DNA from: Pseudorhodoferax sp. Leaf274
Lineage (GTDB): Bacteria; Pseudomonadota; Gammaproteobacteria; Burkholderiales; Burkholderiaceae_C
Assembly (NCBI RefSeq): GCF_001422445.1
Contig: NZ_LMNA01000004.1
Coordinates: 3,227 to 67,226, forward strand
DNA: 64,000 bases
Direction: 5' to 3'
A program made the position numbers and the translations under genes. The notes beneath the pieces are model-generated. The model had not been told where the DNA came from. It worked only from the letters and a program-made list of their open reading frames with translations, and did not search any database. Of the stretch, positions 7,200 to 26,467 are shown in pieces. The stretch's first letter is position 1, and each line of letters opens with the position of its first letter.

Positions 7200-7586
7200 T
7201 CAGGCCTGTTGTGTGCTGCGCTGCGGAGGCCGCAGGGGGCCTTCGAGATAGACAGGTGCATGCCCGACGCCTGCGCTTGGCACCAGGACCGATGGGACGG
7301 GGTCGCCTGCCGCAAGGCTCATCGCCGGGGCCAAACCAGGCAGCTGCGCCGCCTGGTTGGCATGCTGGTGAGGTGGTTCGCCGCTGTCGTCCTCGACGTG
7401 CAGTGTCTGGTCGGCGTGGTGGTGGTGGTCCACTTCCTGTGCGTGCACGACCATGTGCCCGATGACCTTGGCTTGGTGGTCAAGATGGGCCGGGGTGAGC
7501 CACGCCAATGCCTGCCAGACCATGGCAATCAGCAGGACGAGGGCTCGGCGTTTGGCGGTCACAAAAGAATTGTAGAGGTGGCGCAA
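7200..7586 (-). CDS. histidine-rich CzcI-like small protein
   Basis: A 128-aa protein with one N-terminal hydrophobic segment (ALVLLIAMVWQALAWL), probably a signal or anchor. It is followed by a His/Asp/Glu-rich middle (HAQEVDHHHHADQTLHVEDD and HQHAN) and a proline-rich tail with VYLEGPLRPPQR. This layout resembles CzcI-type periplasmic accessory proteins of heavy-metal operons, which end in a similar aromatic-Leu-Asp/Glu-Gly-Pro pattern. It is the first gene of the metal run, 178 nt before hupE, so it may share the promoter region in 7587-7994. Assignment to CzcI is tentative; metal binding is likely from composition. Confidence 0.55.
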   Translation of the reverse strand: MRHLYNSFVTAKRRALVLLIAMVWQALAWLTPAHLDHQAKVIGHMVVHAQEVDHHHHADQTLHVEDDSGEPPHQHANQAAQLPGLAPAMSLAAGDPVPSVLVPSAGVGHAPVYLEGPLRPPQRSTQQA

Positions 7587-7994: not shown

Positions 7995-8924
7995 TCAAGT
8001 GACGCATTCATCGGCGCGCCAGCTTGTCTCTGCCGCGCGCACGACATCGCCAACCCAATCCACGAACGCGCGCACCGTGGGTGACAGATGGCGGTTCTGC
8101 GGATACAGCACAGACAGCGGCGCAGCCGGCGCAGTGCAGTCGGCCAGCACCTGCCGCAGCCGCCCGCTGCGCAGATGGTGGCGCACCATGTAGCTGCCTG
8201 CGCGGATGAGGCCCAGGCCTTCGAGGCCGCAGGTCACGTACGCATCGGTGTCGTTGACGATGAGGCGCTCGCGCATCGTGATGGAACGGTCTTCGCCGTC
8301 GACCACGAAGTTCCACTCCAGCGACCGAGCGGTGCGGCTCGACAGGTAGCCCACCGCGTGGTGTTCGGCCAGGTCCTCAAGCGACTTCGGTGTGCCTTGC
8401 GCTGCCAGGTACTCTGGTGAGGCACAGGTCACCCATTCGAAGGCACCGATACGTTTGGCCACCAAGGTCGGCGAGTCCTCAGGCGTGCCCGCGCGGATGA
8501 CGCAATCGATACCTTCCTGCACCAGCTCGACTGTGCGGTCCGACACCGTCAAGGTGAGCTCGACGTCCGGAAAGCGCGCCTGGAAATCCTTGATGCAGGG
8601 CAGGACCACCAAACGCGCGAGCGACAGCGTCATGTCCACGCGCAGGCGCCCGCGCGGCTTGCCGGCGCTTCCAGGGAAGCTGGATTCGACGGCTTCGATA
8701 TCGGCCAGCAGGCGCCTGCAGTGGTCGAAATAGAGCGTGCCATCGGGGGTCAGGCTGATGTGGCGCGTCGTCCGCTGCAGCAGCCGCACACCGAGAAATG
8801 TCTCGAGGTCCTTCACCGCGCGCGTGACCCGTGAGGGGCGCACGGACAGGCTGTCGGCCGCCCGCGTGAAGCTGTGCATCTCGACCACGCGCGCAAAGAT
8901 CTGCATCGACTGGAGGCGGTCCAC
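7995..8924 (-). CDS. LysR-family regulator (CrgA-like)
   Basis: A 309-aa LysR-type transcription factor. The N-terminal winged helix-turn-helix (residues 1-60; SMQIFARVVEMHSFTRAADS, then SRVTRAVKDLE) is followed by the effector-binding domain from about residue 88. The GTG at 8924 is preferred over the ATG at 8942: it gives the family-typical V/M-D-R-L-Q-S-M-Q start and has AAGGAA upstream. The gene is divergent from the efflux operon starting at 9134, and the shared 209-nt region has strong inverted repeats. It is thus the likely regulator of that efflux operon, in the manner of MexT and mexEF-oprN, though its sequence is closer to CrgA-like regulators. The inducer is unknown. Confidence 0.85.
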   Translation of the reverse strand: MDRLQSMQIFARVVEMHSFTRAADSLSVRPSRVTRAVKDLETFLGVRLLQRTTRHISLTPDGTLYFDHCRRLLADIEAVESSFPGSAGKPRGRLRVDMTLSLARLVVLPCIKDFQARFPDVELTLTVSDRTVELVQEGIDCVIRAGTPEDSPTLVAKRIGAFEWVTCASPEYLAAQGTPKSLEDLAEHHAVGYLSSRTARSLEWNFVVDGEDRSITMRERLIVNDTDAYVTCGLEGLGLIRAGSYMVRHHLRSGRLRQVLADCTAPAAPLSVLYPQNRHLSPTVRAFVDWVGDVVRAAETSWRADECVT

Positions 8925-8944
8925 GTGGGCTGTTCCTTCCAAGG

Positions 8945-9133: not shown

Positions 9134-10321
9134 ATGAACCCCCTCAAGAAACATCCGCTAGCATCCGCCATGGCGGCCATCGCGGTGGCCGGCGCCGGCA
9201 TCGCGCTGTGGAGCGATGGCTCCCCAGCACACGCCGAAGCCGCCGCCGCACCGCCTCCCACCGTCAAGTACCGGCCGGCCCCGCAACGGCCGGTGTCCGA
9301 TGCGCAGGACTACACCGGCCGGCTTGAAGCCGTGGACCTGGTCGACATCCGGCCCAAGGTGCCGGGCACGCTGCAGGCGGTCCACTTCAAGCCCGGCCAG
9401 CATGTGCGCCAGGGCGAGTTGCTGTTCACCATCGACCCGGCTCCGCTGGAGACCCAGGTGCGGCAGGCACAGGCCCAGTTGGCGGGCGCCGAAGAACGGC
9501 AGCGACTCGCCGACCTCGAACAGGCGCGTGGCCGGCGGCTGCTGGAGTCGAGCGCCATCGCGCGTAGGGAATTCGACGTGCTCGACAACGCGGCAAGGGC
9601 CGCCGCTGCCGCCCTGAAAGGCGCGCAGGCCGGGCTGGCCCAAGCGCAGCTCCAACTGAGCTACACGCAGGTCCGGGCCCCGATCGCGGGGCGCATCTCG
9701 CGCGCGGAGATCACCGCTGGCAATGTGGTGGTCGCAGGAGGCGACGCAACTGCACTCACGCGGATCGTGTCCGACGGCAAGCTCTACGCATCCTTCAACG
9801 TGGACGAGCAAAGCTACCTGCGGATCATTGCGCCCTCGCTGCGGGCTGGCGCGCAACCCGTAGTGAAGGTCGGCCTTGCGAACGACGATGCCTTCCCGTT
9901 TGCTGCCGCTATCGAGGCCATCGACAACCAGATGGACACCCGTTCAGGCACGGTGCGGGTGCGGGCGCGCATCGACAAGGTGACGCCCGAGATGCTTCCT
10001 GGGCTGCAGGCGCGTATCCGCCTGCAGGGCGGCACGCCCTACGACGCTGTGATGGTCGACGAGGCCGTCGTTGGTACCGACCAAGACCGCAAGTACGTCC
10101 TCATCGTCAATGCAGAGAACAAGGTCGAGCGCCGCTTTGTCGAACTCGGTGTGCTCCAGGGGCGCGATCGGGTGGTGCGCAGCGGCATCGCGCCGGGTGC
10201 CCGGGTCATCGTGGATGGGGCCTTCCGTGCGTCGCCCGGCGCGTCGGTGTCGGCGATTCCTGCCGAGGCAGCGGAGCCGCCCGAGGCGTCCGCCAGGGCC
10301 ACCCATGGAGACCGGTCGTGA
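9134..10321 (+). CDS. RND efflux periplasmic adaptor (MexE-like)
   Basis: A 395-aa membrane-fusion subunit that links the inner-membrane RND pump to the outer-membrane channel. It has an N-terminal signal sequence or lipid-free export segment (AMAAIAVAGAGIALWS), a biotinyl-lipoyl-like half motif (VDLVDIRPKVPGTLQAVHF, then KPGQHVRQGELLFTIDPAPL), a helical hairpin rich in Gln/Ala (residues about 110-175), the second lipoyl half (VRAPIAGRISRAEI) and a beta-barrel domain. It is the first gene of a three-gene operon; its stop codon overlaps the GTG start of the pump gene. Expression is probably controlled by the divergent LysR regulator. Confidence 0.9.
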   Translation: MNPLKKHPLASAMAAIAVAGAGIALWSDGSPAHAEAAAAPPPTVKYRPAPQRPVSDAQDYTGRLEAVDLVDIRPKVPGTLQAVHFKPGQHVRQGELLFTIDPAPLETQVRQAQAQLAGAEERQRLADLEQARGRRLLESSAIARREFDVLDNAARAAAAALKGAQAGLAQAQLQLSYTQVRAPIAGRISRAEITAGNVVVAGGDATALTRIVSDGKLYASFNVDEQSYLRIIAPSLRAGAQPVVKVGLANDDAFPFAAAIEAIDNQMDTRSGTVRVRARIDKVTPEMLPGLQARIRLQGGTPYDAVMVDEAVVGTDQDRKYVLIVNAENKVERRFVELGVLQGRDRVVRSGIAPGARVIVDGAFRASPGASVSAIPAEAAEPPEASARATHGDRS

Positions 10322-13300
10322 ACATCTCGAAGTTCTTCATCGACCGGCCGATCTTCGCGGGCGTGCTGTCTGCGCTGATCCTGCTGGCAGGCATCGTGGC
10401 AGCGTTCAGCATGCCGGTGTCGGAATACCCGCAGGTCATCCCGCCCTCGGTCGTCATCCACGCGCAGTACCCCGGCGCCAACGCCAAGACCATCGCCGAG
10501 ACAGTCGCCGCACCGCTCGAGCAATCCGTCAATGGCGTGGAAGACATGCTCTACATGGACTCGAAGGCCAGCGGCGACGGCCACCTGTACCTGACGGTGA
10601 CCTTCAAGCTGGGCGTCGACCCGGACCGTGCGCAACAGCTCGTGCAGACCCGCGTGTCGCAAGCCGTGCCGCGGCTGCCCGAGGATGTGCAGCGCTTGGG
10701 CGTCACGGCGGTCAAGAACCTGCCGATGATCACCATCGCCGTGCACATGGTGTCGCCCAAGGGAACCTACGACAACAACTACATCAGCAACTACGCCATC
10801 CTGCACGTGAAGGATCGGCTGGCGCGGATCCAGGGCGTCGGCGACGTGGCGATCTGGGGGCCTGGTGGCTACGCCATGCGCATCTGGCTGGACCCGGCCG
10901 CCCTCGCCGAGCGGGGACTGGGCGCCAGCGACGTCGCCAGCGCCATCCGGCGTCAGAACGTCCAGGCTGCAGTGGGAACCATCGGCAGTGCACCGACGAA
11001 TCCCGACACAGCCTTCCAGCTCACCGTCAACGCCGACGGTCGCCTCAGGACGCCGGAGGAGTTCAAGCGCATCGTCATCAAGTCGGACGCCGGTGGCGCC
11101 ATCACGCGCCTGGGTGACGTGGCGCGCGTGGAGCTCGGTGCTGAGGACTACGGCATCCGCGCCACGCTGGACAACGCACCGGCCGTCGCGGTGACGGTGC
11201 AGGAAGCGCCGGGTGCGAACTCGCTGCAAATCTCGCGCGACGTGCACAAGGCCATGCAGGAACTGGAGAAGGAATTCCCGGAGGACGTGGTCTACCGCGT
11301 GGTCTACGAGCCGAGCCGCGCGGTCCAGTCCGGCATCGATGCGGTCGTCAAGACACTGCTGGAATCCGTGGCCCTGGTCGTGCTGGTCGTGTTCCTGTTC
11401 CTGCAGACCTGGCGCGCATCCATCATTCCGCTGATCGCCGTGCCCATCTCCATCGTCGGCACCTTCACCTTCCTGCTGCTGGCGGGCTATTCCATCAACA
11501 CGCTGTCGCTGTTCGGGCTGGTGGTGGCGATCGGCATCGTGGTCGACGACGCCATCGTGGTGGTCGAAAACGTGGAGCGCAACATCGCGCGCGGGATGAC
11601 GCCACGCGAAGCCACCTACCAGGCCATGCGCGAGGTGAGCGGCCCCATCATCGCCATCGCGCTGACCTTGTCGGCTGTGTTCCTTCCGCTGGCTTTCCTG
11701 AGCGGCCTGACAGGCGAGTTCTACAAGCAGTTCGCGGTCACCATCGCCATCTCCACGCTCATCTCGGCGGTGAACTCGCTGACGCTGTCGCCGGCGCTGT
11801 CGGCCCTGCTCCTGAAAGGCCATGGCGACGCCCCTGACTGCTTCACGCGAGTCACGCAGAAGCTGTTCGGCGGCTTCTTTGGGCGCTTCAACCGGATGTT
11901 TGACCGCGCTTCCGAAGGCTACGGCGGCAGCGTCGGCCGGATCCTGAAGCACAGGGGCGCGATGCTTGTCGTGTACGCCGGCCTGCTCGGCGCCACCTGG
12001 TGGCTTACCGGCCACGTGCCGGGCGGCTTCGTTCCTGCGCAGGACAAGGAGTACCTCGTGAGCCTGGCCCAGATGCCGGAAGGCGCCACGCTGGACCGCA
12101 CCGAAGCGACGATGACGAAGATGAACGAGATCGCGCTCAGGCACCCCGCGGTCATGGGCACATCGAGCTACAGCGGGCTCTCGATCAACGGTGTGACGAA
12201 GAGCTCCAGCACCGCGCTCACGTTCGTGCTGCTCAAGCCGTTCAAGGACCGTGCAGGCATCAGCGCCGACCAAGTCGCGGCCGACCTGGGCAAGGAGTAC
12301 AGCGCCATTGGCCACGCCTTCACCGGCATCTTCCCGCCGCCGCCCGTCTATGGTCTGGGCACCCTGGGCGGCTTCAAGCTGCAGATCGAGGACCGGGCCG
12401 ACCTGGGCTACGAGGCGCTCTACAAGGCGACCCAGGCCTTCATCCAGGCGGCGTCCAAAACGCCCGAGCTCGGGCCGCTCTTTTCGACCTACACGGTGAA
12501 TGTTCCCCAGCTCAAGGTCGACATCGACCGCGAGAAGGCGCAACAGCTCGGCGTCGACACGCCGGCGGTGTTCAGCACGCTGCAGGCCTACCTCGGGTCG
12601 TACTACGTCAACGACTTCAACTTCCTGGGCCGCGTGTACCAGGTGCGCATGCAGGCTGACAGCCGCTTTCGCTCCAAGGCGGACGACATTGGGCAACTGC
12701 ACGTGCGCAGCGCGTCGGGCCAGATGATTCCGCTGGCCTCGATCGCGAAGGTCGGCCAGACCTACGGCCCCGACCAGGTGCTGCGCTACAACGGCTACAC
12801 GTCGGCCGACGTGGGCGGCAGCCCGGCACCGGGCTACTCGTCGGACCAGGCGATGGCAGCCATCCAGCGGATCGCGGCCGAGACCTTGCCGCCGGGCATG
12901 ACCTACGAATGGACCGACCTGACCTACCAGCAGATCATCGCGGGCAACAGCGCGGTCTGGATCCTTCCGCTGTGCGTGCTGCTGGTGTTCTTCGTGCTGG
13001 CCGCCCAGTACGAGAGCCTCACGCTGCCGTTGGCCATCATCTTGATCATCCCGATGAGCATCTTCTCGGCGCTGCTCGGGGTGTGGCTCACGAAGGGCGA
13101 CAACAACATCTTCACGCAGATCGGGCTCATCGTGCTGGTCGGCCTGGCGTCGAAGAACGCCATCCTGATCGTGGAGTTCGCCCGCGAGCTGGAGATGGCG
13201 GGCATGGCCACCCTTAAGGCCGTGATCGAGGCCTGCCGCCTGCGACTGCGGCCCATCCTGATGACGTCGCTGGCCTTCATCATGGGTGTGATCCCGCTGG

Positions 13301-13524
13301 TGCTGTCGACCGGTGCCGGCTCGGAGATGCGCCGTGCGATGGGCATCTCGGTGTTCTTCGGAATGATCGGCGTCACACTGTTCGGCCTGTTCCTGACGCC
13401 ACTGTTCTACGTGGTCATGCGGGCACTAGGGGGCAGCAAACCACTGCGCTCTGCGGTGCGTCACGACGCTCCCGCCACTGTCCCGCACCACCTCGCACTC
13501 CAGCAGCCGGAGGTCAAAGCATGA
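10318..13524 (+). CDS. RND multidrug efflux pump, HAE1 type (MexF-like)
   Basis: A 1068-aa inner-membrane proton-driven drug exporter, full length for the HAE1 family. It starts NISKFFIDRPIFAGVLSALI, the standard N-terminus, and has two sets of six helices with large periplasmic loops between. The helix-4 proton relay is visible as VVAIGIVVDDAIVVVENVER with the paired aspartates. The second half has GLIVLVGLASKNAILIVEFA. The GTG start overlaps the adaptor stop and the stop overlaps the next ATG, so all three genes are translationally coupled. By overall form and by the LysR neighbour it resembles MexF of MexEF-OprN; the drugs exported are not known. Confidence 0.92.
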   Translation: MNISKFFIDRPIFAGVLSALILLAGIVAAFSMPVSEYPQVIPPSVVIHAQYPGANAKTIAETVAAPLEQSVNGVEDMLYMDSKASGDGHLYLTVTFKLGVDPDRAQQLVQTRVSQAVPRLPEDVQRLGVTAVKNLPMITIAVHMVSPKGTYDNNYISNYAILHVKDRLARIQGVGDVAIWGPGGYAMRIWLDPAALAERGLGASDVASAIRRQNVQAAVGTIGSAPTNPDTAFQLTVNADGRLRTPEEFKRIVIKSDAGGAITRLGDVARVELGAEDYGIRATLDNAPAVAVTVQEAPGANSLQISRDVHKAMQELEKEFPEDVVYRVVYEPSRAVQSGIDAVVKTLLESVALVVLVVFLFLQTWRASIIPLIAVPISIVGTFTFLLLAGYSINTLSLFGLVVAIGIVVDDAIVVVENVERNIARGMTPREATYQAMREVSGPIIAIALTLSAVFLPLAFLSGLTGEFYKQFAVTIAISTLISAVNSLTLSPALSALLLKGHGDAPDCFTRVTQKLFGGFFGRFNRMFDRASEGYGGSVGRILKHRGAMLVVYAGLLGATWWLTGHVPGGFVPAQDKEYLVSLAQMPEGATLDRTEATMTKMNEIALRHPAVMGTSSYSGLSINGVTKSSSTALTFVLLKPFKDRAGISADQVAADLGKEYSAIGHAFTGIFPPPPVYGLGTLGGFKLQIEDRADLGYEALYKATQAFIQAASKTPELGPLFSTYTVNVPQLKVDIDREKAQQLGVDTPAVFSTLQAYLGSYYVNDFNFLGRVYQVRMQADSRFRSKADDIGQLHVRSASGQMIPLASIAKVGQTYGPDQVLRYNGYTSADVGGSPAPGYSSDQAMAAIQRIAAETLPPGMTYEWTDLTYQQIIAGNSAVWILPLCVLLVFFVLAAQYESLTLPLAIILIIPMSIFSALLGVWLTKGDNNIFTQIGLIVLVGLASKNAILIVEFARELEMAGMATLKAVIEACRLRLRPILMTSLAFIMGVIPLVLSTGAGSEMRRAMGISVFFGMIGVTLFGLFLTPLFYVVMRALGGSKPLRSAVRHDAPATVPHHLALQQPEVKA

Positions 13525-15041
13525 CCAAGACCCACCCAACGAGCCGGCGCACTGCTCGAACGATCCGCGGGGCGATCGTTGTGGCAGTGAGCCTGCTCCT
13601 CCTGACGGCATGCGCCGTTTCGCCGGTGGAGCGCCGGCCCGAGATGAGCGTGCCCTCGAAGTTCAGGCAAGCCGACGAGCATCCGCTGGCGCCGACGGAG
13701 GTTCCTGGCAACTGGAAGCCAGCCGAGCCCGCCGACCAGCAGCCGCCCTCGCCCTGGTGGGAGGTCTTCGGCGACCCGGTCCTCGTGCGGCTCGAACAAG
13801 AGGCGCTGCAGGCCAACCCCGACGTCGCCATCGCGATGGCCCGGCTCCAGCAATCGCGCGCGCTGGCCTCGCGCAGCGAAGCGGCGCGCCTGCCGCAGGT
13901 CGACGCAGGCTTCGGCCCGACCCGCCAGCGCAGCAGCGGTGCCGCCGCCGGGCGCGGAGACGGCGCACCGGGGTCGACGCAGACTCTGTGGCGCGCGCAG
14001 GCCTCGGTTGCGTACGAAGTCGATCTCTTCGGGCGCGTGTCGGCCGGCATCGACGCCGCGCGCGCCGATGCGGCGCAGCAGCAGGCCCTGGCGCACCAGA
14101 TGCTGCTGCTGGTGCAGGCCGACGTCGCCAGGACATACTTCAGCCTTCGGCAGCTCGAGGGCGAGCAGCGCCTGTTGCGGGACACTGTGGCACTGCGTGA
14201 AGGCGCCGTGACGGTGTTGGAGCGCAGGCTCGATGCCGGCTCCGTCGCCCGTTTCGTCGTCGAGCAGGCCAGGACGGAACTGTTCTCGGCACGTGCCGAG
14301 CTGGGTGCCGTGGCGCAGCAGCAAGCCTTGGTCTCCCATGCGCTGGCCACCTTGCTCGGCAAGGCACCGGCGGAGTTCTCGCTCGAAGCGAGGCCCCTGG
14401 AGAGCATCGCCGTCCAGCTGCCGCAGGGCCTGCCTTCGGCTTTGCTGGAACGTCGCCCGGACATCGCGGCTGCCGAGCGCGCGATGGCGGCGGAAAACGC
14501 CCGCATCGGGGTGGCCCAGGCAGCGTTCTTTCCGTCGCTGTCGCTCACTGGCGCGCTGGGCTACGAGTCGTCCAGCCTCGGCAACCTGGCCAACTGGTCG
14601 CAGCGGACATTCCTGCTGGGGCCGCTGGTGGGAGCGGCCCTGAACTTGCCGCTCTTCGACGGTGGGCGGCGCAAGGCCGACGTCGAGCGCCTGCGTGCGG
14701 TCTACGAGCAGCGGGTCGGCGAGTACCGCAAGACGGTACTGCAGGCGTTTCGCGAGGTCGAGGACTCCCTGGTTTCCATGCGCATCCTCGGCGAGCGAAT
14801 CGGCCACCAGCGCAGTGCCCAGGACGCATCGTCGAGCGTCGCGCGATCCGCACAGGCCCGGTTCGATGAAGGCGACATCGACTATCTCGCGGTCGTCGAT
14901 GCAGAGCGCACGCATCTGCACAGCCGCCAGTCGCTGATCCAGGCCGAAGGCGAACGCGCCCGCGCGACCGTCGACCTGGTGCGCGCCCTCGGCGGAGGCT
15001 GGAACGTCTCCAGCATCGGCAAGCCACGCACCGACGACTGA
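13521..15041 (+). CDS. outer-membrane efflux channel, NodT/OprN family
   Basis: A 506-aa outer-membrane factor forming the exit duct of the RND pump. The signal peptide ends in a lipobox (LLLLTA-C, cysteine near residue 31), so it should be lipid-anchored. Two repeated OEP domains follow; the first begins near SPWWEVFGDPVLVRLEQEAL and the second contains ALLERRPDIAAAERAMAAEN, the family signature. Its ATG overlaps the pump stop by 4 nt. It is the last gene of the efflux operon, 95 nt before the Old Yellow Enzyme gene. Confidence 0.92.
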   Translation: MTKTHPTSRRTARTIRGAIVVAVSLLLLTACAVSPVERRPEMSVPSKFRQADEHPLAPTEVPGNWKPAEPADQQPPSPWWEVFGDPVLVRLEQEALQANPDVAIAMARLQQSRALASRSEAARLPQVDAGFGPTRQRSSGAAAGRGDGAPGSTQTLWRAQASVAYEVDLFGRVSAGIDAARADAAQQQALAHQMLLLVQADVARTYFSLRQLEGEQRLLRDTVALREGAVTVLERRLDAGSVARFVVEQARTELFSARAELGAVAQQQALVSHALATLLGKAPAEFSLEARPLESIAVQLPQGLPSALLERRPDIAAAERAMAAENARIGVAQAAFFPSLSLTGALGYESSSLGNLANWSQRTFLLGPLVGAALNLPLFDGGRRKADVERLRAVYEQRVGEYRKTVLQAFREVEDSLVSMRILGERIGHQRSAQDASSSVARSAQARFDEGDIDYLAVVDAERTHLHSRQSLIQAEGERARATVDLVRALGGGWNVSSIGKPRTDD

Positions 15042-15136
15042 TCCGACCGCGCAGACCGCGCCGGCCTCAAGGCCTGCAGCCAGGCTTGTCCCGCGCCCGA
15101 TCACGGGTGCTGCCGCTACTTCTTTGGAGATTTTTA

Positions 15137-16225
15137 ATGCCCGTTTCAGAGCTGTTCAAACCGCTCACGCTCCTGCACGGCCCTGCCATGCGCAACCGCT
15201 TCATGCTGGCACCGCTCACCAACCAGCAAAGCGAAGCCGACGGTACCGCGTCCGAATTCGACCACCACTGGATGGCACAGATCGCGGAAGGCGGCTACGC
15301 CTTGGCCCAGACCTGTGCCACGACGGTGGAGGCGGGTGGCATCGCCTTTGCGCGCCAGCTTGGTATCCACAGCGATGCCCACCTGCCGGGCCTGACGAAG
15401 CTGGCCACGTCGCTGCGCATGGGCAACACCCTGTCGGCCGTGCAGTTGCACCATGCCGGACACCGGGCCAATCCGCTGCTGGGGGGCATCCCCGCGCCGG
15501 CCTCCAGCCACACGCTGCCGGGCGTCAAGGCGCTCACGACGCGGGAAGTCGAGCGCATCCGCGACAGCTTCATCGCCGCCGCATTGCGCGCGGAGAAGGC
15601 GGGCTTCAATGGCGTGGCCGCCCACGGGGCGTTCGGCTGGATCCTGTCGGAGTTCATGTCCCCATATCTCAACGACCGCACCGACCGGTACGGCGGCAGT
15701 GTCGAGAACAGGGCGCGTCTCACGCTGGAAGTCCTCGAAGGCATTCGGCGTGCCTGCGGACCCGATTTTCAGATCGGTTGGCGCCTGTCGATCGAGCGCT
15801 ACGGCCTGCAGTTGGAGGAGTTGCGCGAGATCACCGCCCACATCCTGGACCGCGAAACGATCGACTACCTGGATCTCGCCCTGTGGGACTCTGCCCAGAT
15901 CGTTCGGGAGGGACGGTTCCAGGGCAAGTCGATGCTCAGCGTCTTCACGGACCTCCCCCGCAAGGGCGTGCGCGTCGGAACGGCCGGCAAGGTCATGAGC
16001 GCCCAGCGCTGCGGGCAGCTGCTGGACGAAGGCTGCGACTTCGTGCTGATCGGCCGCGCCAGCATTCTTCAGCGGGACTTCCCGTTGCAGGTCCAAGCCA
16101 ACCCCCATTTCGACAGCCCGCGTATGCCGGTACCTGCGGGCTACCTGCGCGAGGGCGGGTTGAGCGAGCGCTTCATCAACCACATGCGTGGATGGCAGAC
16201 CTTTGTTGTACCTGGATCCCTGTAG
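15137..16225 (+). CDS. NADH:flavin oxidoreductase, Old Yellow Enzyme family
   Basis: A 362-aa FMN-dependent ene-reductase with a TIM-barrel fold. Such enzymes reduce activated C=C bonds, and often nitro groups or quinones, with NAD(P)H. Visible motifs are RNRFMLAPLTNQQ near the N-terminus, QLHHAGHR, GFNGVAAHGAFGWILSEFMS and LNDRTDRYGGSVENRARL, the barrel signature. The usual catalytic H-x-x-N or H-x-x-H and Tyr region appears partly altered (AAHGAFG where AAHGYL is common). The ATG at 15137 has GGAGA 7 nt upstream; the earlier in-frame start lacks family sequence. It heads a run with two glutathione transferases and a second OYE. Confidence 0.88.
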   Translation: MPVSELFKPLTLLHGPAMRNRFMLAPLTNQQSEADGTASEFDHHWMAQIAEGGYALAQTCATTVEAGGIAFARQLGIHSDAHLPGLTKLATSLRMGNTLSAVQLHHAGHRANPLLGGIPAPASSHTLPGVKALTTREVERIRDSFIAAALRAEKAGFNGVAAHGAFGWILSEFMSPYLNDRTDRYGGSVENRARLTLEVLEGIRRACGPDFQIGWRLSIERYGLQLEELREITAHILDRETIDYLDLALWDSAQIVREGRFQGKSMLSVFTDLPRKGVRVGTAGKVMSAQRCGQLLDEGCDFVLIGRASILQRDFPLQVQANPHFDSPRMPVPAGYLREGGLSERFINHMRGWQTFVVPGSL

Positions 16226-16234
16226 GAGAAACCA

Positions 16235-17116
16235 ATGACCGAACCCTCTCTCGACAACCAACCCGCAGGCTACGAGCCGCCCAAAGTCTGGCAACCCAAG
16301 ACTGCCTATGGTGGTACGTTCGCCAGCATCAACCGCCCCGAATCCGGCGCCCGCTTCGAGAGCGAACTGCCAATCGGCAAACATCCGATCCAGCTCTATT
16401 CGCAGGGCACACCCAATGGCCAGAAGATCACGATCATGCTGGAGGAGTTGCTGGCGGCAGGGCACGCCGGCGCCGAGTACGACGCCTGGCTGATCGACAT
16501 CTTCAAAGGCGAGCAGTTCGGCAGCGGCTTCGTCGGCCTCAACCCCAACGGCAAGATCCCGGCACTGGTGGACCGGTCGACCGACCCGGCCACTCCTGTG
16601 TTCGAGAGCGGCTCGATCCTGGTCTACTTGGCGGAGCGCTTCGGCGCGTTCCTGCCGACCGAGCGCCGGGCGAGGACCGAGACGTTCAACTGGTTGATGT
16701 GGCAGATGGGATCGGCGCCCTTCGTCGGTGGCGGCCTGGGCCACTTCTACGCCTATGCGCCCTTCAAGATCGAATATGCGATCGACCGCTACGCGATGGA
16801 GACCAAGCGCCAGCTCCACGTGCTGGACACGCACCTGGCCTCGCACGAGTTCCTTGCAGGCGACCAGTACACGATCGCCGACATGGCGGTCTGGCCTTGG
16901 TATCCCGGCAGTCTGTACGGCGTGTATGGCACGCACGAGTTCCTGGCTGTCGAGCAGTACACGCACCTGATGCGCTGGTACCGGGCGATTGCCGAGCGCC
17001 CCGCGGTGGCACGGGGCCGGGTCGTCAACCGCATCTCCGGAGCGTCTGGGGAATTCCTGCGCGAGCGCCACGACGCGAGCGACTTCGATGCACTGCGGCC
17101 GGCGGGCCCGCAATGA
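16235..17116 (+). CDS. yghU: glutathione S-transferase, YghU type
   Basis: A 293-aa protein matching the Nu-class GST/disulfide-bond oxidoreductase YghU, which uses two glutathione molecules to reduce disulfides or peroxides. The N-terminal extension (GYEPPKVWQPK, INRPESGARFE) and the thioredoxin-like domain with LYSQGTPNGQKITIMLEEL are characteristic. The C-terminal all-helical domain includes the DQYTIADMAVWPWYPGSLYG segment. It starts 9 nt after the first OYE gene and is probably cotranscribed with it. Confidence 0.88.
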   Translation: MTEPSLDNQPAGYEPPKVWQPKTAYGGTFASINRPESGARFESELPIGKHPIQLYSQGTPNGQKITIMLEELLAAGHAGAEYDAWLIDIFKGEQFGSGFVGLNPNGKIPALVDRSTDPATPVFESGSILVYLAERFGAFLPTERRARTETFNWLMWQMGSAPFVGGGLGHFYAYAPFKIEYAIDRYAMETKRQLHVLDTHLASHEFLAGDQYTIADMAVWPWYPGSLYGVYGTHEFLAVEQYTHLMRWYRAIAERPAVARGRVVNRISGASGEFLRERHDASDFDALRPAGPQ

Positions 17117-17155
17117 CCTGACCGACCGCCCAATCAACCATTTAACAACGGACTG

Positions 17156-17776
17156 ATGACGATGAAACTTTACTACTCGCCCGGCTCCTGCGGGCTCGCA
17201 TCCCAGATCGCCTTGCATGAGGCCGGGCAGGCGTTCGATCTGGTGAAGGTCGACTTCAAGACCAAGACCACGGTCGAAGGCGACTACTTCCGAGTGACGC
17301 CGAAAGGCTTCGTCCCTGCGCTCAAGTTGGACGACGGCGACCTGCTCACCGAAGGGGCCGTGATCCTGCAATGGATCGCCGACAAGCATCCGGACGCCAG
17401 GCTCCTTCCTTCGTTCGGGACCCGGGAGCGCTACACCGCGCTGGAGTGGCTCAACTTCGTGGCCAGCGACCTGCACAAGAGCATGGCCGTGATGTTCTCG
17501 CCCTTCCTGGACGACGCGACGAAAAAGCGGTTCGCAGATGGCAACCTGACCAGCAAGTTTGACTACATCGACGAACACCTGTCCAGGAACGACTACGTCC
17601 TGGGCGCGCAGTTCTCGGTCGCAGATGCGTACCTCTACAACGTCCTGTCATGGCCGCATCGCGTGAACATCGACATCACCAGCTACACCAACATCAAGAG
17701 CTTCATGGCACGCATGAACCGGCGGGCCAGCGTGCGGGCGGCGTTGGCGGCTGAAGGCCTCCAGGTGAATGGCTGA
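17156..17776 (+). CDS. glutathione S-transferase, beta class
   Basis: A 206-aa cytosolic GST. The N-terminal thioredoxin fold begins KLYYSPGSCGLASQIALHEA, with the Cys of the PGSC motif typical of the beta class (GstA). The GSH-binding VPAL-x-L and the ES/EG-A-I-x-x-Y/W element (LTEGAVILQWIADKHP) follow. The C-terminal helical domain ends near residue 200 with FSVADAYLYNVLSW. ATG codons at 17156 and 17162 are both possible; the second gives the family-standard M-K-L start. It lies in the run between YghU and the second OYE. Confidence 0.88.
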   Translation: MTMKLYYSPGSCGLASQIALHEAGQAFDLVKVDFKTKTTVEGDYFRVTPKGFVPALKLDDGDLLTEGAVILQWIADKHPDARLLPSFGTRERYTALEWLNFVASDLHKSMAVMFSPFLDDATKKRFADGNLTSKFDYIDEHLSRNDYVLGAQFSVADAYLYNVLSWPHRVNIDITSYTNIKSFMARMNRRASVRAALAAEGLQVNG

Positions 17777-17803
17777 ACAACCAGGACCTTGCGAGAACCC
17801 CCC

Positions 17804-18898
17804 ATGCCAACACTGTTCGATCCCATCGCGCTTGGTGCCGTCAAGGCTCCGAACCGCACATTCATGGCGCCACTGACACGGGCGCGCGCCACCCGCGACC
17901 ATGTGCCGACGCCCATCATGGCCGACTACTACGCGCAGCGTGCCTCGGCCGGGTTGATCATCGGGGAGGCCACTGGCATTTCGCGCCAGGCGGTTGGCTG
18001 GCCCTATGCGCCAGGGCTGTGGTCCGCAGAACAGGTCCAGGCGTGGAAGCTTGTCACGCAGGCGGTGCACGCCAAGGGCGGTCTGATCTTCGCGCAGCTC
18101 TGGCACATGGGCCGCATGGCTCATTCGGCTGTGACGGGCCACGCGCCTGTGTCGGCCAGTGCGACAACCATGCCAGGCGATGCGCACACCTATGAAGGCA
18201 AGAAGCCGTTCGAGCTCGCCAGGCCTTTGACGGCAGAGGAGATCACCGGCCTGATCGACGACTACGTGAGAGCGGCGAACAACGCCATGGCCGCGGGCTT
18301 CGATGGCGTTCAGATCCACGCCGCCAATGGCCAGTTGATCGACCAGTTCCTGCGCGACGGAACCAACGTGCGGGCTGACGAGTTCGGCGGCAGCATCGAG
18401 AACCGCGTGCGCTTGCTGAGAATGGTCACACAGGCCGTGGCCAACGCAGTGGGCGCTGATCGCACGGCCGTGCGGCTGTCTCCCAATGGCGAGAGCTACG
18501 GCGTGGACGACAGCCATCCGGCGCCACTGTTCACGGCGGCGGCGGACATCCTGCACGCCATGGGTATCGCCTTTCTGGAACTGCGCGAGCCTGGCCCGGA
18601 GGGGACGTTCGGCGCGACCGATGTGCCGCGACTGTCACCGCTGATTCGCAGGCATTTCAAGGGAGCGCTGGTACTGAACAGCGACTACGACATGGCACGC
18701 GCCAAGGCGGACCTCGACAGCGGGCTGGCAGATGCGATCAGCTTCGGGCGCCCCTTTCTGGCGAACCCCGATCTGGTTCAACGCCTGCGCGAAGGCGCTC
18801 CCTTGAACCAGGACGTGATGGAGACGTACTACAGCCAGGGGGCAGAGGGCTACACCGACTACCCCACGCAGGCACGGTGCACACAAGCCCTGGCCTGA
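17804..18898 (+). CDS. Old Yellow Enzyme, NemA-like N-ethylmaleimide reductase
   Basis: A 364-aa FMN ene-reductase of the NemA type, acting on maleimides, nitro compounds, glycerol trinitrate and similar electrophiles. It shows LFDPIALGAVKAPNRTFMAP, the FMN-binding QLWHMGRMAH, FDGVQIHAANGQLIDQFLRD with the catalytic-site H-x-x-N, and GGSIENRVRLL. The C-terminus carries the phosphate-binding SFGRPFLANPDLVQRL. The start at 17804 gives the family N-terminus; an in-frame TTG 15 nt upstream is unlikely. It is a second, clearly different OYE in the same run, 27 nt after the GST gene. Confidence 0.9.
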   Translation: MPTLFDPIALGAVKAPNRTFMAPLTRARATRDHVPTPIMADYYAQRASAGLIIGEATGISRQAVGWPYAPGLWSAEQVQAWKLVTQAVHAKGGLIFAQLWHMGRMAHSAVTGHAPVSASATTMPGDAHTYEGKKPFELARPLTAEEITGLIDDYVRAANNAMAAGFDGVQIHAANGQLIDQFLRDGTNVRADEFGGSIENRVRLLRMVTQAVANAVGADRTAVRLSPNGESYGVDDSHPAPLFTAAADILHAMGIAFLELREPGPEGTFGATDVPRLSPLIRRHFKGALVLNSDYDMARAKADLDSGLADAISFGRPFLANPDLVQRLREGAPLNQDVMETYYSQGAEGYTDYPTQARCTQALA

Positions 18899-19370: not shown

Positions 19371-20285
19371 TCATGCCCCGGCATGGCGCGCGCCATCCAG
19401 GCGCTCGCGCAGTTGCACACAGAGGTGGTCCACTAACGTAGATAGGCGCGCCGAGCCATGCCGGTTGCGCGGGTACACCAGGGACAGAGGCCGGGCCTGC
19501 GGCGCGTGGCGTTGGAGCACGGGCACCAGCTCGCCACGCTCGCAGGCCTCGATCACTTGGTAGTGCAGAAAGCGGGCGAAGCCCTGGCCGGCGATGCAGG
19601 CGGCCAGGTTGGCGCCGACGGTGTTGCAAGCCAGGCGTCCGCCGACCTTGACGCGCTCGCGTCGGCCATCGGTGGAGAATTCCCACACGCCGGGGTCGCC
19701 CACGCCGCCAAACCGGATGCAGGGTTGGGCTGCGAGGTCTTTCGGCTCCAGCGGCAACCCCTGCGCCGCAAGCAGGGCGGGGCTCGCCGCAATGACCTGC
19801 CACACCTCAGTGACATGGCGTGCTACCAGGGACGAATCCGGCAGCGGCGCGATGCGAACGGCCAGGTCGATGCCCTCCTCGACGAGATTGACCACCCTGT
19901 CCAGCAGCAGCAACTGCACTTCCACCCGCGGGTGGCGCTGCAGGTAGCAGGCCACCAGCGGCGCCACGTGCATCTCGCCGAACTTGACCGAAGCCGTCAC
20001 CGTGATGCTGCCCGCCGGCTCGGCCTGGGCCTGGCGCATCGCCTGTTCCGACTCGGCCACCGCGGCGCGGATGGCCAGCGCATGCTCTCGATAGGCGCGC
20101 CCCTCGTCGGTGATGGCCAGGCGCCGCGTGTTGCGGTTGAACAAGCGCACGCCCAGGTGGGTTTCCAGCGCGGCCAATGTGCGCACAACGCTGGGCAGCG
20201 AGAGCGACAGCGCGTCGGCGGCCCGGGTCAGGCTGCCGCGCTCGGCGATTTCGAGGAAGACCTCGATGGCATGCAGGCGGTCCAT
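19371..20285 (-). CDS. LysR-family regulator
   Basis: A 304-aa LysR regulator with the N-terminal DNA-binding domain MDRLHAIEVFLEIAERGSLT, RAADALSLSLPSVVRTLAAL and a substrate-binding domain from about residue 90. The gene is convergent with the AhpD-like gene and divergent from the DsrE-like gene at 20433. A near-perfect LysR-type palindrome lies between it and that gene. It probably controls the DsrE-like/PNPOx-like pair and itself. It is a paralogue in form of the regulator at 7995-8924; the ligand is unknown. Confidence 0.88.
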   Translation of the reverse strand: MDRLHAIEVFLEIAERGSLTRAADALSLSLPSVVRTLAALETHLGVRLFNRNTRRLAITDEGRAYREHALAIRAAVAESEQAMRQAQAEPAGSITVTASVKFGEMHVAPLVACYLQRHPRVEVQLLLLDRVVNLVEEGIDLAVRIAPLPDSSLVARHVTEVWQVIAASPALLAAQGLPLEPKDLAAQPCIRFGGVGDPGVWEFSTDGRRERVKVGGRLACNTVGANLAACIAGQGFARFLHYQVIEACERGELVPVLQRHAPQARPLSLVYPRNRHGSARLSTLVDHLCVQLRERLDGARHAGA

Positions 20286-21748: not shown

Positions 21749-22051
21749 GGAACAACGCGCAATCGCGGGGAAAGTTCTTTGCCCACGGCGGTCGTCAACC
21801 AGCGTCTGAGCGTCAGCAACTGTCTGAAGCGGTCAGACGTTCGGTGAGACGACCGTCCGCTGATGGCCGACTGCTGAGATAACGAATGCCCAACCGGGAC
21901 CATGTGCACCTACTACTGCAACCAAAGAAAAGTCTTCTGCAGACCAGCTAACGAACAGGCGACATGTTGGCGACAGGTCCCAAATGGATCCCCGAGCGCG
22001 AGAGCGACGAGCTCTCGACCATGAGCTGCCAAGCGGCTACGCGAGGATGGC
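21749..22051. other. intergenic stretch with dispersed repeat
   Basis: About 300 nt with no gene recognised, between two convergent transcription units. CGACCGTCCGCTGATGGCCG at 21850-21869 matches 18 of 20 bases of a sequence at 7757-7776. No clear hairpin followed by a T-run is seen for either gene. Confidence 0.4.
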
Positions 22052-24262
22052 TCATGAGCGTGGCGGCAAGGTTGCCTCGGCCGGGATGATCTCGTACCTC
22101 TGATTCGGCATGTCGATCACCAGGTCGAACCTATCGCCAGGCGCGACACCAGCCATGTTCGCGGCTAGCGCCAGGCTGAAGAATTGTTGGCTGTTCGCCT
22201 TGATATTGATGGGGGGGAAGTGCTCGCCTTTGTGCGCGAAGGTGCCATAGACCTTTCCGAAGAGGAATTTCGGAAGGTAGACGACCTGGCGCCGCAGCGA
22301 CACCTTCGACGCCGACTGCGTGACGCTGAAGCGATAGGGGCGAGTCAGGTCGACGGCCACTTCCAAGGGAGCATTGCGGCCGACCTCGACTTCCCTTCGC
22401 CGGCGGGCATCGATCAACCCCTGTGCAGGGATTGGTCGACCTCGGATCGCATAGATGGAGTGCTCTAGCTTCTGAATCGCAGGTGAGCTACTGAGGGCCA
22501 CCGAAACGGCCATGTTTGAGACGCCACTTGGAACCACCAGTCGCGCGGCAACTTCGGTGCGCGTGGCCGCGCCGCCGTGCTCCTCGATGATGCTGACAAT
22601 CGTGGCTTCTGTCGGCGAAAGGGCGTCACGCGCGACGGCGGCTTTTGGGGCGTACTTGTTGTGACCGTTCGCCGTAAGCCAATCCCAGCCCGCGATCAGT
22701 GCTGTCATAACGTGCAGCGGCGGCATGGCCAGCCCACGCCCGGCGCCTTCGCGATAGAACCAGGCATCATCGGTGACCAGCGCTGAAATCACGGCGTCAA
22801 TCTCGACGCTGCCGATGGCGACGCTCATGAGTTTGCGCATGCGCGCCGCGGCGGCACTGATGTCACTGTCGATGAGAGTGAACCATCCAGACTCGGCGTC
22901 CAGCATGCGGAACCCAGGTGCGCGCTCGAACAGCGAGCGAAGCGTGGCCTCGTCCTGCGCCACGCCCTCCTTGATCGCCAGGATCCCCGCAATGCGGATG
23001 AAGTTGGTGCAACCCACAAACGTGCAGTCGCGCCGTGCTTCCGAAAGGGCTACCCTCATCCATGTCGACGGTTCGACGGTGAGGTCTAGCATCACGATGC
23101 TTTTGACACCATCACTCGTGCTCGTGCGCGCGGCGACAACCTGGATCGTCGGTGCGACGCCTAGTTCCTTGGCGAAGTCGATTGCCGCGATGATCCCGAC
23201 GCCCTTCCCAAGGAAGCGCTGCAGCTGCTTGTTGGCCGCGGTGGCGGACAGCGGCATGACGCGCGCGGCCGCCGCGAATAGACGATCCAGCGCCGGTAGC
23301 GCGAGCGGCCGCGCACGCAGCGAGGCCAAGAGACCTTCACAGATTTGCCGCACCCGCTCGCGGGTGAGGTCATGCACGTCGGCCATCGCCTGCAAGGTCG
23401 CACCCTCCAAGCCGCCAAATCGGCCGAGGAAGAGTTCTCGGCGGCGCCGCAGGCCCGCGTGATCTGGGCGCAGGCCGGCGTCGACCAACGCGTGGCGCAG
23501 AAGGTCCTCGAGTTCCTGGGCCCAGGTCGCCTTGTGGGCGGCGATAAGGCGAACGCAGAGTTCGTGGGCGAACCCTGAGAGCGACGGCCTTGCGATCTGC
23601 CGTGCGAGCCACGTAGCGAGCGCAGAGCCCGCAACACCCGGAAACCTGAGGTCGTCGATGTCCAGGCCTTGAACCCAGGTTGCGTTGAGGCAATCTGCGA
23701 CGGCGGCGCGGAATGTGTCGTCGATGTCGACGTCAGGCGAGGCCTGGGGCGCTAGCGCGACCATCCTGGCGCGCACAGGTTGGCCAACCCAGTATGTCGC
23801 CTCGATGCGTGCGAGGAGGCCGAGCAGTTCGGCCACCGGAAACTTGAGGACGTCCTTCACCTGGCGAAGCGTCATCGATGGGAAGGCCTCGGAAAATCCC
23901 TCGCTTCGTGTGAGCGCAAGCAAATCGTCCCGCTCCGCCCCGCTGGCTGCCAGATGCCAGTTATCGGTCAGGCGCACACCGATGGGCGAACTCCAAATCA
24001 CATCGAAGCTGGCTCGCCGACGGGCAACGATCACCTCCCGCATCTCGGCGGCAAACCGCTCACTGGGAAGGCCCTGGCGCTGCCAGTTGAAAAGTTCGTG
24101 CGCCTCGACGTCACCGTGCACCGAAGGCAATGCGCTCTTGACGAAGGGCCTCATGAAACTTGGCACTACCCTGGCATGGCGGGCGATGGTGCCGCCTGAA
24201 GTTGGTGCAGTCTGGCCCGAGCACGCGGCGTCGGGCTGGGGGGCGGCGTCGTGCTGTTTCAA
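22052..24262 (-). CDS. large protein with sigma-70 region-4-like HTH, unknown function
   Basis: I do not recognise this protein as a named family. It is about 736 aa from a TTG at 24262 (GAAGGG six nt upstream) or about 700 aa from an ATG at 24154. Residues about 275-315 include ATLQAMADVHDLTRERVRQI, very like the region-4 helix-turn-helix of sigma-70 factors (the L-T-R-E-R-V-R-Q-I core). Residues about 547-607 look like a second, winged helix (LSPTEATIVSIIEEHGGAAT, RTEVAARLVV). The C-terminus is beta-rich. No nuclease, ATPase or transposase motif is visible. It is the first gene inside the Tn7-like element end next to glmS, transcribed inward, where tnsA lies in Tn7, but it does not resemble TnsA. 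A regulatory or defence role is possible but not shown. Confidence 0.75.
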   Translation of the reverse strand: MKQHDAAPQPDAACSGQTAPTSGGTIARHARVVPSFMRPFVKSALPSVHGDVEAHELFNWQRQGLPSERFAAEMREVIVARRRASFDVIWSSPIGVRLTDNWHLAASGAERDDLLALTRSEGFSEAFPSMTLRQVKDVLKFPVAELLGLLARIEATYWVGQPVRARMVALAPQASPDVDIDDTFRAAVADCLNATWVQGLDIDDLRFPGVAGSALATWLARQIARPSLSGFAHELCVRLIAAHKATWAQELEDLLRHALVDAGLRPDHAGLRRRRELFLGRFGGLEGATLQAMADVHDLTRERVRQICEGLLASLRARPLALPALDRLFAAAARVMPLSATAANKQLQRFLGKGVGIIAAIDFAKELGVAPTIQVVAARTSTSDGVKSIVMLDLTVEPSTWMRVALSEARRDCTFVGCTNFIRIAGILAIKEGVAQDEATLRSLFERAPGFRMLDAESGWFTLIDSDISAAAARMRKLMSVAIGSVEIDAVISALVTDDAWFYREGAGRGLAMPPLHVMTALIAGWDWLTANGHNKYAPKAAVARDALSPTEATIVSIIEEHGGAATRTEVAARLVVPSGVSNMAVSVALSSSPAIQKLEHSIYAIRGRPIPAQGLIDARRRREVEVGRNAPLEVAVDLTRPYRFSVTQSASKVSLRRQVVYLPKFLFGKVYGTFAHKGEHFPPINIKANSQQFFSLALAANMAGVAPGDRFDLVIDMPNQRYEIIPAEATLPPRS

Positions 24263-24465
24263 TGCATGCCCTTCGTCGAGGTCTTCATCATCGTCGTCTT
24301 CGACGTGATCGTGAGTCGCTACGGCTGGCGCGCCCGCGCGCCCCCACGCGCATGCGGGCGAGACAACCGCGACAGTTTACCGACTGGAACGCGCGCTCTT
24401 CGGGGCCGCAAAGCACCGGCCAGGGGCGTGCGGTAGGCCGCTACAGCCTGGAGCCTATGGAGGTG
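24263..24465. promoter_or_regulatory. upstream region of the sigma-r4-like gene
   Basis: About 200 nt between the TTG start at 24262 and the innermost repeat of the Tn7-like end. The frame stays open for some 35 codons above the TTG, encoding an acidic stretch (EDDDDEDLDEG), then meets a stop near 24380. A longer N-terminus would need a start codon that I do not see. The promoter must lie here or within the element end. Confidence 0.35.
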
Positions 24466-24540
24466 TACGACTTTATTAATTGGTCGCCCCCACAAGTTAC
24501 GACTCTATTCGCGGGTTTACGACTTTATTCGTACCAAACA
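24466..24540. mobile_element. Tn7-like transposon end with three TnsB-type sites
   Basis: Three direct repeats on the plus strand, TACGACTTTATTA (24466-24478), TACGACTCTATTC (24498-24510) and TACGACTTTATTC (24518-24530), end in ...AAACA at 24540. Read inward from the terminus this is TGTTTGGTACGAATAAAGTC, then repeats of GAATAAAGTCGTAA. This has the TGT terminus and AATAAAGTC core that I recall from the TnsB-binding sites of Tn7. The terminus is exactly 25 nt from the glmS stop codon, the Tn7 insertion point. The element lies to the left. No tnsABCD genes or opposite end are seen in this window. Confidence 0.85.
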
Positions 24541-24565
24541 GCTCCAGTCAGCCGCCCGCGATCAG
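24541..24565. other. attTn7 spacer between element end and glmS stop
   Basis: The 25 nt between the transposon terminus and the glmS stop codon. If insertion was of Tn7 type, the first five bases (GCTCC, 24541-24545) should be one copy of the 5-bp target duplication. The glmS coding end ([10 protein letters not shown]) is the conserved TnsD recognition region. Confidence 0.75.
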
Positions 24566-26467
24566 TCACTCCACCGTGACACTCTTCGCCAGGTTCCTGG
24601 GCTTGTCCACATCCGTCCCCCGGGCGCACGCCGTGTGGTACGCCAGCAGCTGCAGCGGCACCACGTGCAGCAGCGGCGACAACGCGCCGTAGTGCTCGGG
24701 CATGCGGATCACGTGGATGCCCTCCTCGCTCTCGATGCGCGTGTCGCCGTCGGCCAGCACGTACAGCACGCCGCCGCGCGCGCGCACTTCCTGCATGTTG
24801 CTCTTGAGCTTTTCCAGCAACTGGTCGTTGGGCGCCACCGTGACCACCGGCATGGTGCTGGTCACCAGCGCCAGCGGGCCGTGCTTGAGCTCGCCGGCGG
24901 CGTAGGCCTCGGCATGGATGTAGGTGATCTCCTTGAGCTTGAGCGCGCCTTCCAGCGCCACCGGGTAGTGCAGGCCACGGCCCAGGAACAGCGCGTTCTC
25001 CATCTTCGCGAAGTCTTCGGCCCAGGTGATGACCTGCGGCTCCAGAGCCAGCACGGACTGCAGCGCCACGGGCAGGTGGCGCATGGCCTTGAGGTGGCGC
25101 TGCTCCTCTTCTTCCGTCAGCCGGCCCTTGGCCTGGGCGAGCGCCAGCGTCAGCAGGAACAGGCCGGCCAGCTGCGTCGTGAAGGCCTTGGTGGAAGCCA
25201 CGCCGATCTCCACGCCGGCGCGCGTGATGTAGGCCAGCTTGCACTCGCGCACCATGGCGCTGGTGGCCACGTTGCACACGGTCAGCGTGTGTTCCATGCC
25301 CAGGCTCTGCGCATGGCGCAATGCGGCCAGCGTGTCGGCGGTCTCGCCGCTCTGGCTGATGGTGACGACCAGTGTGCGCGGATCGGGCACGGACTCGCGG
25401 TAGCGGTACTCGCTGGCGATCTCGACCTGCGTGGGCACCTTGGCGATGCCTTCCAGCCAGTACTTGGCGGTGCAGCCGCTGTAGTAGCTGGTGCCGCAGG
25501 CCAGGATCAGCACGCGGTCGATCTGCTGGAACACGCGGTGCGCGCTGGCGCTTGCGCCCTGCTCGTCGGGCTGGCCGTCGAACAGCTCGGGCGCGACGCC
25601 CACCAGGCCTTCCAGCGTGTCGGCGATGGCGCGCGGTTGCTCGAAGATTTCCTTCTGCATGTAATGGCGGTAGGGGCCCAGTTCGGCCGCGCCGCTGTGT
25701 GCCTGCACGGTCTTGACGGGCCGCGCCACGCTCTTGTGCGCCTTGTCGACGATCCAGTACTTGCCCAGCTGCAGATCGACCACATCGCCTTCGGCCAGGT
25801 AGACGATCTGGTCGGTCACGCCGGCCAGGGCCATGGCGTCGCTGGCGAGGAAGTGTTCGCCGCCGTCCTTGCCCACGCCCAGGATCAACGGCGACCCGGC
25901 GCGCGCGCCGACGACGCGGTGCGGCTCGTCCTTGGCAAACACTGCGATCGCGTAGGCACCGCGCAGCTGGCGCACGGCGGCCTTGACGGCCTCGAACAGG
26001 TCACCGTCGTACACGCTGTCGACCAGGTGGGCGATGACCTCGGTGTCGGTCTGGCTGTGGAACACATAGCCCTTGGCCTTCAAGGCCGCGCGCAGTTCGT
26101 CGTGGTTCTCGATGATGCCGTTGTGCACCAGCGCGATGCGGCCTGGCCGCTCGGCCGCCTCGGCGCCCGGGCCGTGGCTGAAGTGCGGATGGGCGTTGTG
26201 CACGGCCGGCGCGCCGTGCGTGGCCCAACGCGTGTGGGCGATGCCGGTGCCGCCCTCGATGTGGTCGGCCTGCACCTGTGCCACGAGTTCGGCGACGCGC
26301 GCCGTGCTGCGTGCGCGTTGCAGCGCTGTGCCCTGGGCGGGCCCGAGGCTGGCGGCATGGATGGCGACGCCACAGCTGTCATAACCCCGGTACTCCAGGC
26401 GCTGCAGGCCCTGGACCAGGATGGGGACGATGTTGCGCTTGGACACTGCGCCGACGATGCCGCACAT
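24566..26467 (-). CDS. glmS: glutamine--fructose-6-phosphate aminotransferase
   Basis: A 633-aa enzyme that makes glucosamine-6-phosphate from fructose-6-phosphate and glutamine, the first step of UDP-GlcNAc synthesis for peptidoglycan and LPS. The N-terminal MCGIVGAV carries the catalytic Cys2 of the glutaminase. Two SIS sugar-isomerase domains follow ([38 protein letters not shown] end). Length is close to the family's 605-610 aa with small insertions. The C-terminal [10 protein letters not shown] is the usual attTn7 region. The gene is divergent from the Lrp regulator; glmU lies about 1.3 kb further on in the same direction. Confidence 0.97.

Follow-up and report, generated by a model that had tools for sequence, protein, structure and literature searches.

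The DNA just downstream of glmS is the standard safe site for Tn7-like elements. In the window (the whole 64,000-nt stretch of DNA analysed here), three direct repeats lie at exactly this place, which raises the question of whether they mark a transposon end and, if so, what kind of element it belonged to and how that element got there. A sequence-only reading had proposed a Tn7-like end at glmS, and the supporting features have since turned up: an opposite end, a GCTCC duplication, an empty site in a relative of the same genus (G002) and tns genes. We are highly confident that a large, degraded Tn7-like transposon (element A) has its glmS-proximal end at 24432-24540. Probably directed by TnsD, it inserted ~25 nt beyond the glmS stop codon and into the tip of an older element (element B). 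Below, contigs of the draft genome are numbered with C, genomes with G and loci with L.

The end beside glmS

The end carries three boxes of the pattern TACGACTYTATT, all within 64 nt, i.e., it is compact (Table 1). The exact pattern occurs three times in the window, whereas 100 dinucleotide-shuffled versions of it contained 0.00 copies on average. Across the whole 6.74-Mb draft genome (30 contigs), it is confined to these three sites, and the single match with one mismatch lies within the opposite end on contig C18. The array runs out to an ACA terminus at 24540, exactly 25 nt from the glmS stop, so the repeats, terminus and spacing first reported for this locus are confirmed, coordinates included. 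Homology between the neighbouring cargo and genome G025 breaks off at 24431, and we therefore place the end region at ~24432-24540.

Whether relatives share this array was checked at 30 glmS loci, each scanned over 150 nt. Three exact boxes were present at the window's own locus and at none of the 29 relatives' loci; one exact box each was found in L034 and L040, and the other 27 loci had none.

Table 1. Coordinates of features in the window
Feature	Position	Strand	Basis or remark
Right-hand end of IS66-family insertion sequence interrupting tnsA	30..154	+	family called from the copy that opens C4
8-bp duplication ATCCGATC of the IS66-family insertion	155..162	.	equals C19 flank GATCGGAT on the other strand
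tnsA N-terminal piece, open frame without a fixed start codon	162..488	-	frame; cut by the IS66-family element
LysR gene beside the RND efflux operon	7995..8942	-	cargo
RND efflux operon (HlyD-type, AcrB-type, OEP)	9134..15041	+	cargo
Two FMN oxidoreductases (15086-16225, 17789-18898) and two GST-like genes (16235-17116, 17156-17776)	15086..18898	+	cargo
LysR regulator	19371..20285	-	cargo
Cargo module adjoining the A end	21982..24431	-	87% DNA identity to G025:C22
Right-type, compact, glmS-proximal end of Tn7-like element A	24432..24540	-	sequence, cargo homology limit, terminus adjoining duplication
TnsB-type box TACGACTTTATT, innermost	24466..24477	+	sequence read and shuffle test
TnsB-type box TACGACTCTATT	24498..24509	+	sequence read and shuffle test
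TnsB-type box TACGACTTTATT, outermost	24518..24529	+	terminus 11 nt further on; start 20 nt after previous box
Terminal ACA (TGT when read inward)	24538..24540	+	sequence read
5-bp target duplication GCTCC	24541..24545	+	second copy at C18:7533-7537, ahead of TGTTTGATTCG
GCTCCAGTCA, tip of B (the older Tn7-like element), severed when A inserted	24541..24550	+	restored 25-bp inverted repeat; uninterrupted in G002
glmS	24566..26467	-	stop TCA at 24566-24568

The opposite end

The inverse end preceded by GCTCC, for which the sequence-only reading suggested a search, is on C18: the duplication is followed directly by TGTTTGATTCG at 7538 and by inward-facing boxes at 7549, 7616 and 7669. Compared with the right-end box, they have 3, 2 and 1 mismatches in 12 positions, respectively, and they are spaced over 132 nt. 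At both ends of A, the outermost box starts 11 nt inside the terminus. A 5-bp duplication would match by chance with a frequency of ~0.002, given the base composition. Element A thus has its compact end facing glmS and its spaced end distal, an asymmetry that a review also reports in Tn7 and many of its relatives, where the end with overlapping sites is nearest the att site (PMC11406308 section 11).

An older element and an empty site

The GCTCC beside glmS is borne out as a target duplication, but it is not native attTn7 sequence: it is the tip of B. Once A is removed and its flanks are rejoined to give CGACGAACTTTATTTGCTCCAGTCA, TGACTGGAGCAAATAAAGTTCGTCG is whole again; over 25 bp it matches, perfectly and in inverted form, the left end of B that starts at C6:197274. 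The same B end stands intact beside glmS in G002 (L051:2753-2776), where it provides an empty site for A, and a decayed version is present at glmS in G003 (L013). Because removing A restores an end that is intact in G002, we read A as inserted, with a 5-bp duplication, inside the tip of B, and the site as a record of successive insertions.

B takes in the final 5 kb of C6, an IS66-family copy and C18 as far as 7532, and its ends, like other B-type ends, have TGA/TCA termini. In our genome and in G002, 15 nt separate its terminus from the glmS stop, and the same holds for G003 (counted by hand). A search of the genus found the B-end pattern, within 2 mismatches, in two of six genomes (our own and G002). 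For B itself, the putative target duplication reads CGCCG against GCCGC, offset by one base. B encodes a 137-aa piece of TniQ (over cut-off), but those of its ORFs that were scanned gave no match for tnsABC, and the TnsB query matched one place in the genome, on C19. Also inside B is a 1139-aa protein (L009:1544-4963, on C18) with weak SIR2 and nSTAND matches, both under their cut-offs; it is perhaps a candidate defence gene, and no PADLOC match to it was found.

Contig order and extent of the island

Contigs of the draft genome overlap by 99 bp at repeated sequences, so we used target duplications to pair their flanks. C6 joins C18 via an IS66-family copy with duplication GTCCGTTC, C18 joins C22 via a second insertion sequence with duplication GGCGGCCC, and C19 joins the window via an IS66-family copy with an exact 8-bp duplication (Table 1). 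Between C22 and C19 there is a gap: C22 terminates in an element which we take to be IS3-like, and C19 terminates in another repeated sequence. Attempts to bridge this gap failed; at the IS3-like element, the duplication is not long enough for linking contigs. A piece of another copy of that element has an rve_2 (integrase-core) match. The known sequence of A amounts to ~35 kb, recognised insertion sequences excluded.

We rejected the deposited contig order at the window's left edge. There, C4:3226, the base immediately to the left of the window, is a lone N, a scaffold join that sets an unrelated IS66-family copy (C4:2-3137) beside the window start. The right flank of that copy, CGCATACG, fits neither the C18 flank nor the C19 flank, whereas the window's own IS66-family end fits C19.

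On the far side of the island, and in independent support of the order proposed here, the DNA that starts ~5 kb beyond glmS in G005 corresponds to C6:188453-193484 here, which faces the island in the right orientation, and part of the same segment sits ~17 kb beyond glmS in G003. On C22, a short ORF (L079:96-443) that encodes a CTNCH motif has no Pfam match and is apparently cut by the IS3-like element; it is possibly a c-type cytochrome, and a gene for a LuxR-type response regulator adjoins it.

Transposition genes

The search for tnsABCD or tniQ that the first reading called for yielded a tnsA-tnsB-tnsC operon, a tnsD and a second tniQ, all on C19 and linked to the window. TnsB (833 aa) aligns to the Tn7 TnsB structure PDB 7pik (E 7.7e-9), and its DDE columns D360, D450 and E485, presumably the counterparts of D273, D361 and E396 in Tn7, are kept in 11/11 alignment rows. 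Neither Pfam nor NCBIfam gave a match for this TnsB, and the NCBIfam scan of four C19 proteins gave none for any of them. The TnsC-like AAA protein (514 aa) matches AAA_22 over the cut-off and TniB at 6.4e-4, under the cut-off. TnsD is a 594-aa ORF on the strand opposite to tnsABC and matches both PF15978 (6.4e-20) and the Tn7 TnsD structure PDB 8glu (4.8e-8). The second TniQ is 350 aa as read, its end running into repeated sequence.

The tnsA gene is broken. Its N-terminal piece is in the window and the remainder continues in frame at C19:100-801, made up of C19:100-576, an in-frame TAG at C19:577-579 and a C-terminal part. Searched apart, the pieces match TnsA of relatives in order (L129 for the N-terminal piece, 3.5e-10; L130 for the middle one, 5.7e-21, and for the last, 2e-5), and they also match the annotated Tn7 TnsA of L131 (1.5e-6). 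A Pfam scan of two of the three pieces at 0.01 gave no match. PF08722 (TnsA N) has no match genome-wide, and none was seen in any control either, so this absence says little. Since an IS66-family element splits tnsA, which also has the in-frame TAG, A is probably immobile now.

TnsE is almost universal among glmS-targeting elements (PMC11406308 section 8). Here, the TnsE_C model (PF18623) found nothing in the genome at E 0.1, a search in which 1/14 controls matched, under cut-off, so that a divergent TnsE could escape it.

Place of A among Tn7-like transposons

A is a divergent member of the Tn7-like transposons, an already known group. We base this placement on TGT...ACA termini with several TnsB-type boxes per end, a 5-bp duplication (GCTCC on both sides of A, whose removal restores the 25-bp repeat of B), a TnsA endonuclease recognised by match to relatives' TnsA (gene broken), a Tn7-type TnsB DDE transposase (the 7pik match and the catalytic columns), and a TnsC AAA ATPase together with TniQ/TnsD (TniQ and TnsD models over cut-offs). 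With its compact end proximal and its insertion point ~25 nt past the glmS stop, A belongs to the glmS-targeting group. TnsE, the mark of Tn7 proper, was not detected, with a weak positive control.

Compared with Tn7 itself, A shares the distance of ~25 nt after glmS, the 5-bp duplication, the TGT/ACA termini and the arrangement of a compact proximal and a spaced distal end, as well as TnsA, TnsB, TnsC and TnsD and the catalytic columns of TnsB. However, its box core is GTCGTAA where that of Tn7 is GTCTTAA, its TnsB is only 23% identical to the annotated Tn7 TnsB in L131, and, unlike in Tn7, its cargo separates tnsA from the glmS-proximal end. Further differences are an inverted tnsD, a second TniQ and the lack of a TnsE_C match.

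The suggestion that the repeats might belong to a separate Tn7-like lineage gains support from a TnsB tree of 11 rows. The TnsB of A falls in a seven-row clade (100/100 support), apart from a four-row group containing the annotated Tn7 TnsB; its branch is long (1.8) and was flagged as unsure by the tree program, and the protein is 21-28% identical to the ten remaining rows. Clade members come from plasmids of Azonexus, Janthinobacterium and Acidovorax (Betaproteobacteria) and from genomes G214, G061 and G290 of the window's own family. At E 1e-10, TnsB matches were found in 8/299 family genomes (our own included, the others at 23-29% identity) and in 263 of 72,556 plasmid records, all under 60% identity; a genome-contig scan with TnsB gave no relative. 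Among literature titles and the opening parts of abstracts, none concerned this TnsB lineage or insertion inside another Tn7-like end.

The elements of this clade resemble A in having a TnsA-like gene upstream of TnsB (in the Azonexus one with PF08722), TnsC and TnsD (TnsD also in the Azonexus plasmid), and a further TniQ-like stretch in L056-L058. They differ in sequence (24-28% identity to the TnsB of A, up to 30% over a shorter stretch) and in the placement of tnsD, which is in line with tnsABC in all five of the loci L056-L060. We did not find glmS in these five stretches. Dual TniQ-TnsD Tn7-like transposons, as described in section 11 of PMC10293859, also carry one long TnsD and one short TniQ, but the short TniQ of A runs into repeated sequence, so its original length may differ from 350 aa. 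With regard to a CRISPR-associated transposon (CAST), no CRISPR-like repeats (exact 22-mers repeated at 45-90 nt) were found in window 1-24600, C18, C19 or the C6 tail.

Cargo

The G+C content of window 155-24431 is 64.2%, compared with 69.7% to the right of 24566. Besides the efflux and oxidoreductase genes (Table 1), this region ends in a module next to the A end whose counterpart in G025 is on C22, while glmS of G025 is on C1. Because that counterpart sits on a contig other than the glmS contig, the module looks like captured DNA. It contains an ORF at 22052-24262 (736 aa) whose sigma-70 region 4-like HTH match falls slightly short of the curated cut-off; only HTH-type matches were found for this protein, and none in the defence library. 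The 736-aa protein is present in 5/299 family genomes (our own included), with two adjacent copies in G214.

Mechanism and alternatives

We propose that TnsB would bind both putative box arrays of A, that TnsA and TnsB would together excise it, and that TnsD, known here by its PF15978 match, would bind the 3' end of glmS as its presumed recognition site. Via TnsC, A would then have inserted ~25 nt beyond the stop, in a fixed orientation and with 5 bp duplicated. The point reached was, by chance, inside the tip of B, and the proteins of A may have differed from those of B enough to escape target immunity. Now that tnsA is broken, A would no longer move by cut and paste. In Tn7, TnsD binds +23 to +58 inside glmS (the middle of the duplication being 0), and the insertion point needs no particular sequence (PMC2918618). 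On this scale, the last base of the glmS stop codon here is +23, and the C-terminal parts of GlmS show 99% protein identity in G002 and G003.

The two ends of A, its duplication, the split of B and the link from the window to the tns genes are read directly from the assembled DNA. We infer that the proteins encoded on C19 work on these ends and that A arrived by the TnsD route. Several points count against this reading of A: tnsD is inverted, the outermost left box is 3/12 off the right-end box, TnsE was not found and PF08722 gave no match.

The draft-assembly gap between C22 and C19 also leaves room for a further element on the stretch from the left end to the tns genes. The end at 24540 could then derive from a transposon that has lost its tns genes, with the C19 operon belonging to a different, nested Tn7-like element, and the stacking of several different Tn7-like ends in the island would suit this. 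However, tnsA is shared between C19 and the window, split by one IS66-family insertion with its 8-bp duplication, and a scan of the whole window for A-type boxes with 2 mismatches gave, apart from the three already described, a single site, at 52589, with none between tnsA and the end. We consider this explanation improbable. At a site crowded with related ends, A might also have come by recombination between old transposon ends, with TnsD-directed insertion playing no part; yet the clean 5-bp duplication and the exact cut inside the B terminus are marks of transposition, and the 25-nt distance fits the Tn7 rule, with a TnsD site from +23 (PMC2918618 section 5), making this very unlikely. We give almost no credence to the repeats being an ordinary intergenic feature of glmS, such as a terminator or regulatory repeats: they do sit just after a gene, but the array is missing from all the relatives' loci scanned, the other end, duplication and tns genes were all found, and the empty site in G002 rules out the regulatory-repeat reading. 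A TnsD-directed insertion of A into the tip of B is the reading we prefer.

Other Tn7-like ends near glmS

The glmS end was matched in 52 of 60 genomes (our own included), of which 30 loci were inspected (our own and 29 relatives) and 22 genomes left out. Paired Tn7-like boxes within 150 nt of the glmS stop were present at 6/30 loci, i.e., our own and those of five relatives from the same family. The pair is 20 nt apart in all five relatives, as are the last two boxes of the window. Taking the terminus by rule as box + 11 nt, the distances to the stop are 25 nt for A, 15 nt for B in G002, and 22, 21, 23 and 23 nt for the rest.

Relic ends of another type (TTGTCTCAGACATTAATGGCA..GAACA) occur in the same island at L121:13409-13478 and 14731-14798 (C6). 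A relative of this type is near glmS in G004, and one was seen by eye in G005.

The least ordinary features of this locus are the B family, with its 15-nt distance, and the fact that one Tn7-like element has inserted into the end of another. It is conceivable, though on balance doubtful, that B-type elements form a Tn7-like family with TGA/TCA termini that inserts about one helical turn nearer glmS (15 nt, compared with 21-25 nt), which would imply that its TnsD/TnsC ruler has another length. If so, the attTn7 site of this genus would be a stratified record of elements with different rulers invading each other's ends.

Implications

These results add a divergent Tn7-like lineage for which both ends, the duplication and an empty site are available. 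Because the insertion point fell in the tip of another transposon, the locus also offers natural evidence that distance from glmS, not sequence, sets the point of insertion. Tn7 shows target immunity (PMC11406308 section 15), and on this basis the stacked ends suggest that glmS islands may grow when elements differ enough that one does not bar the next.
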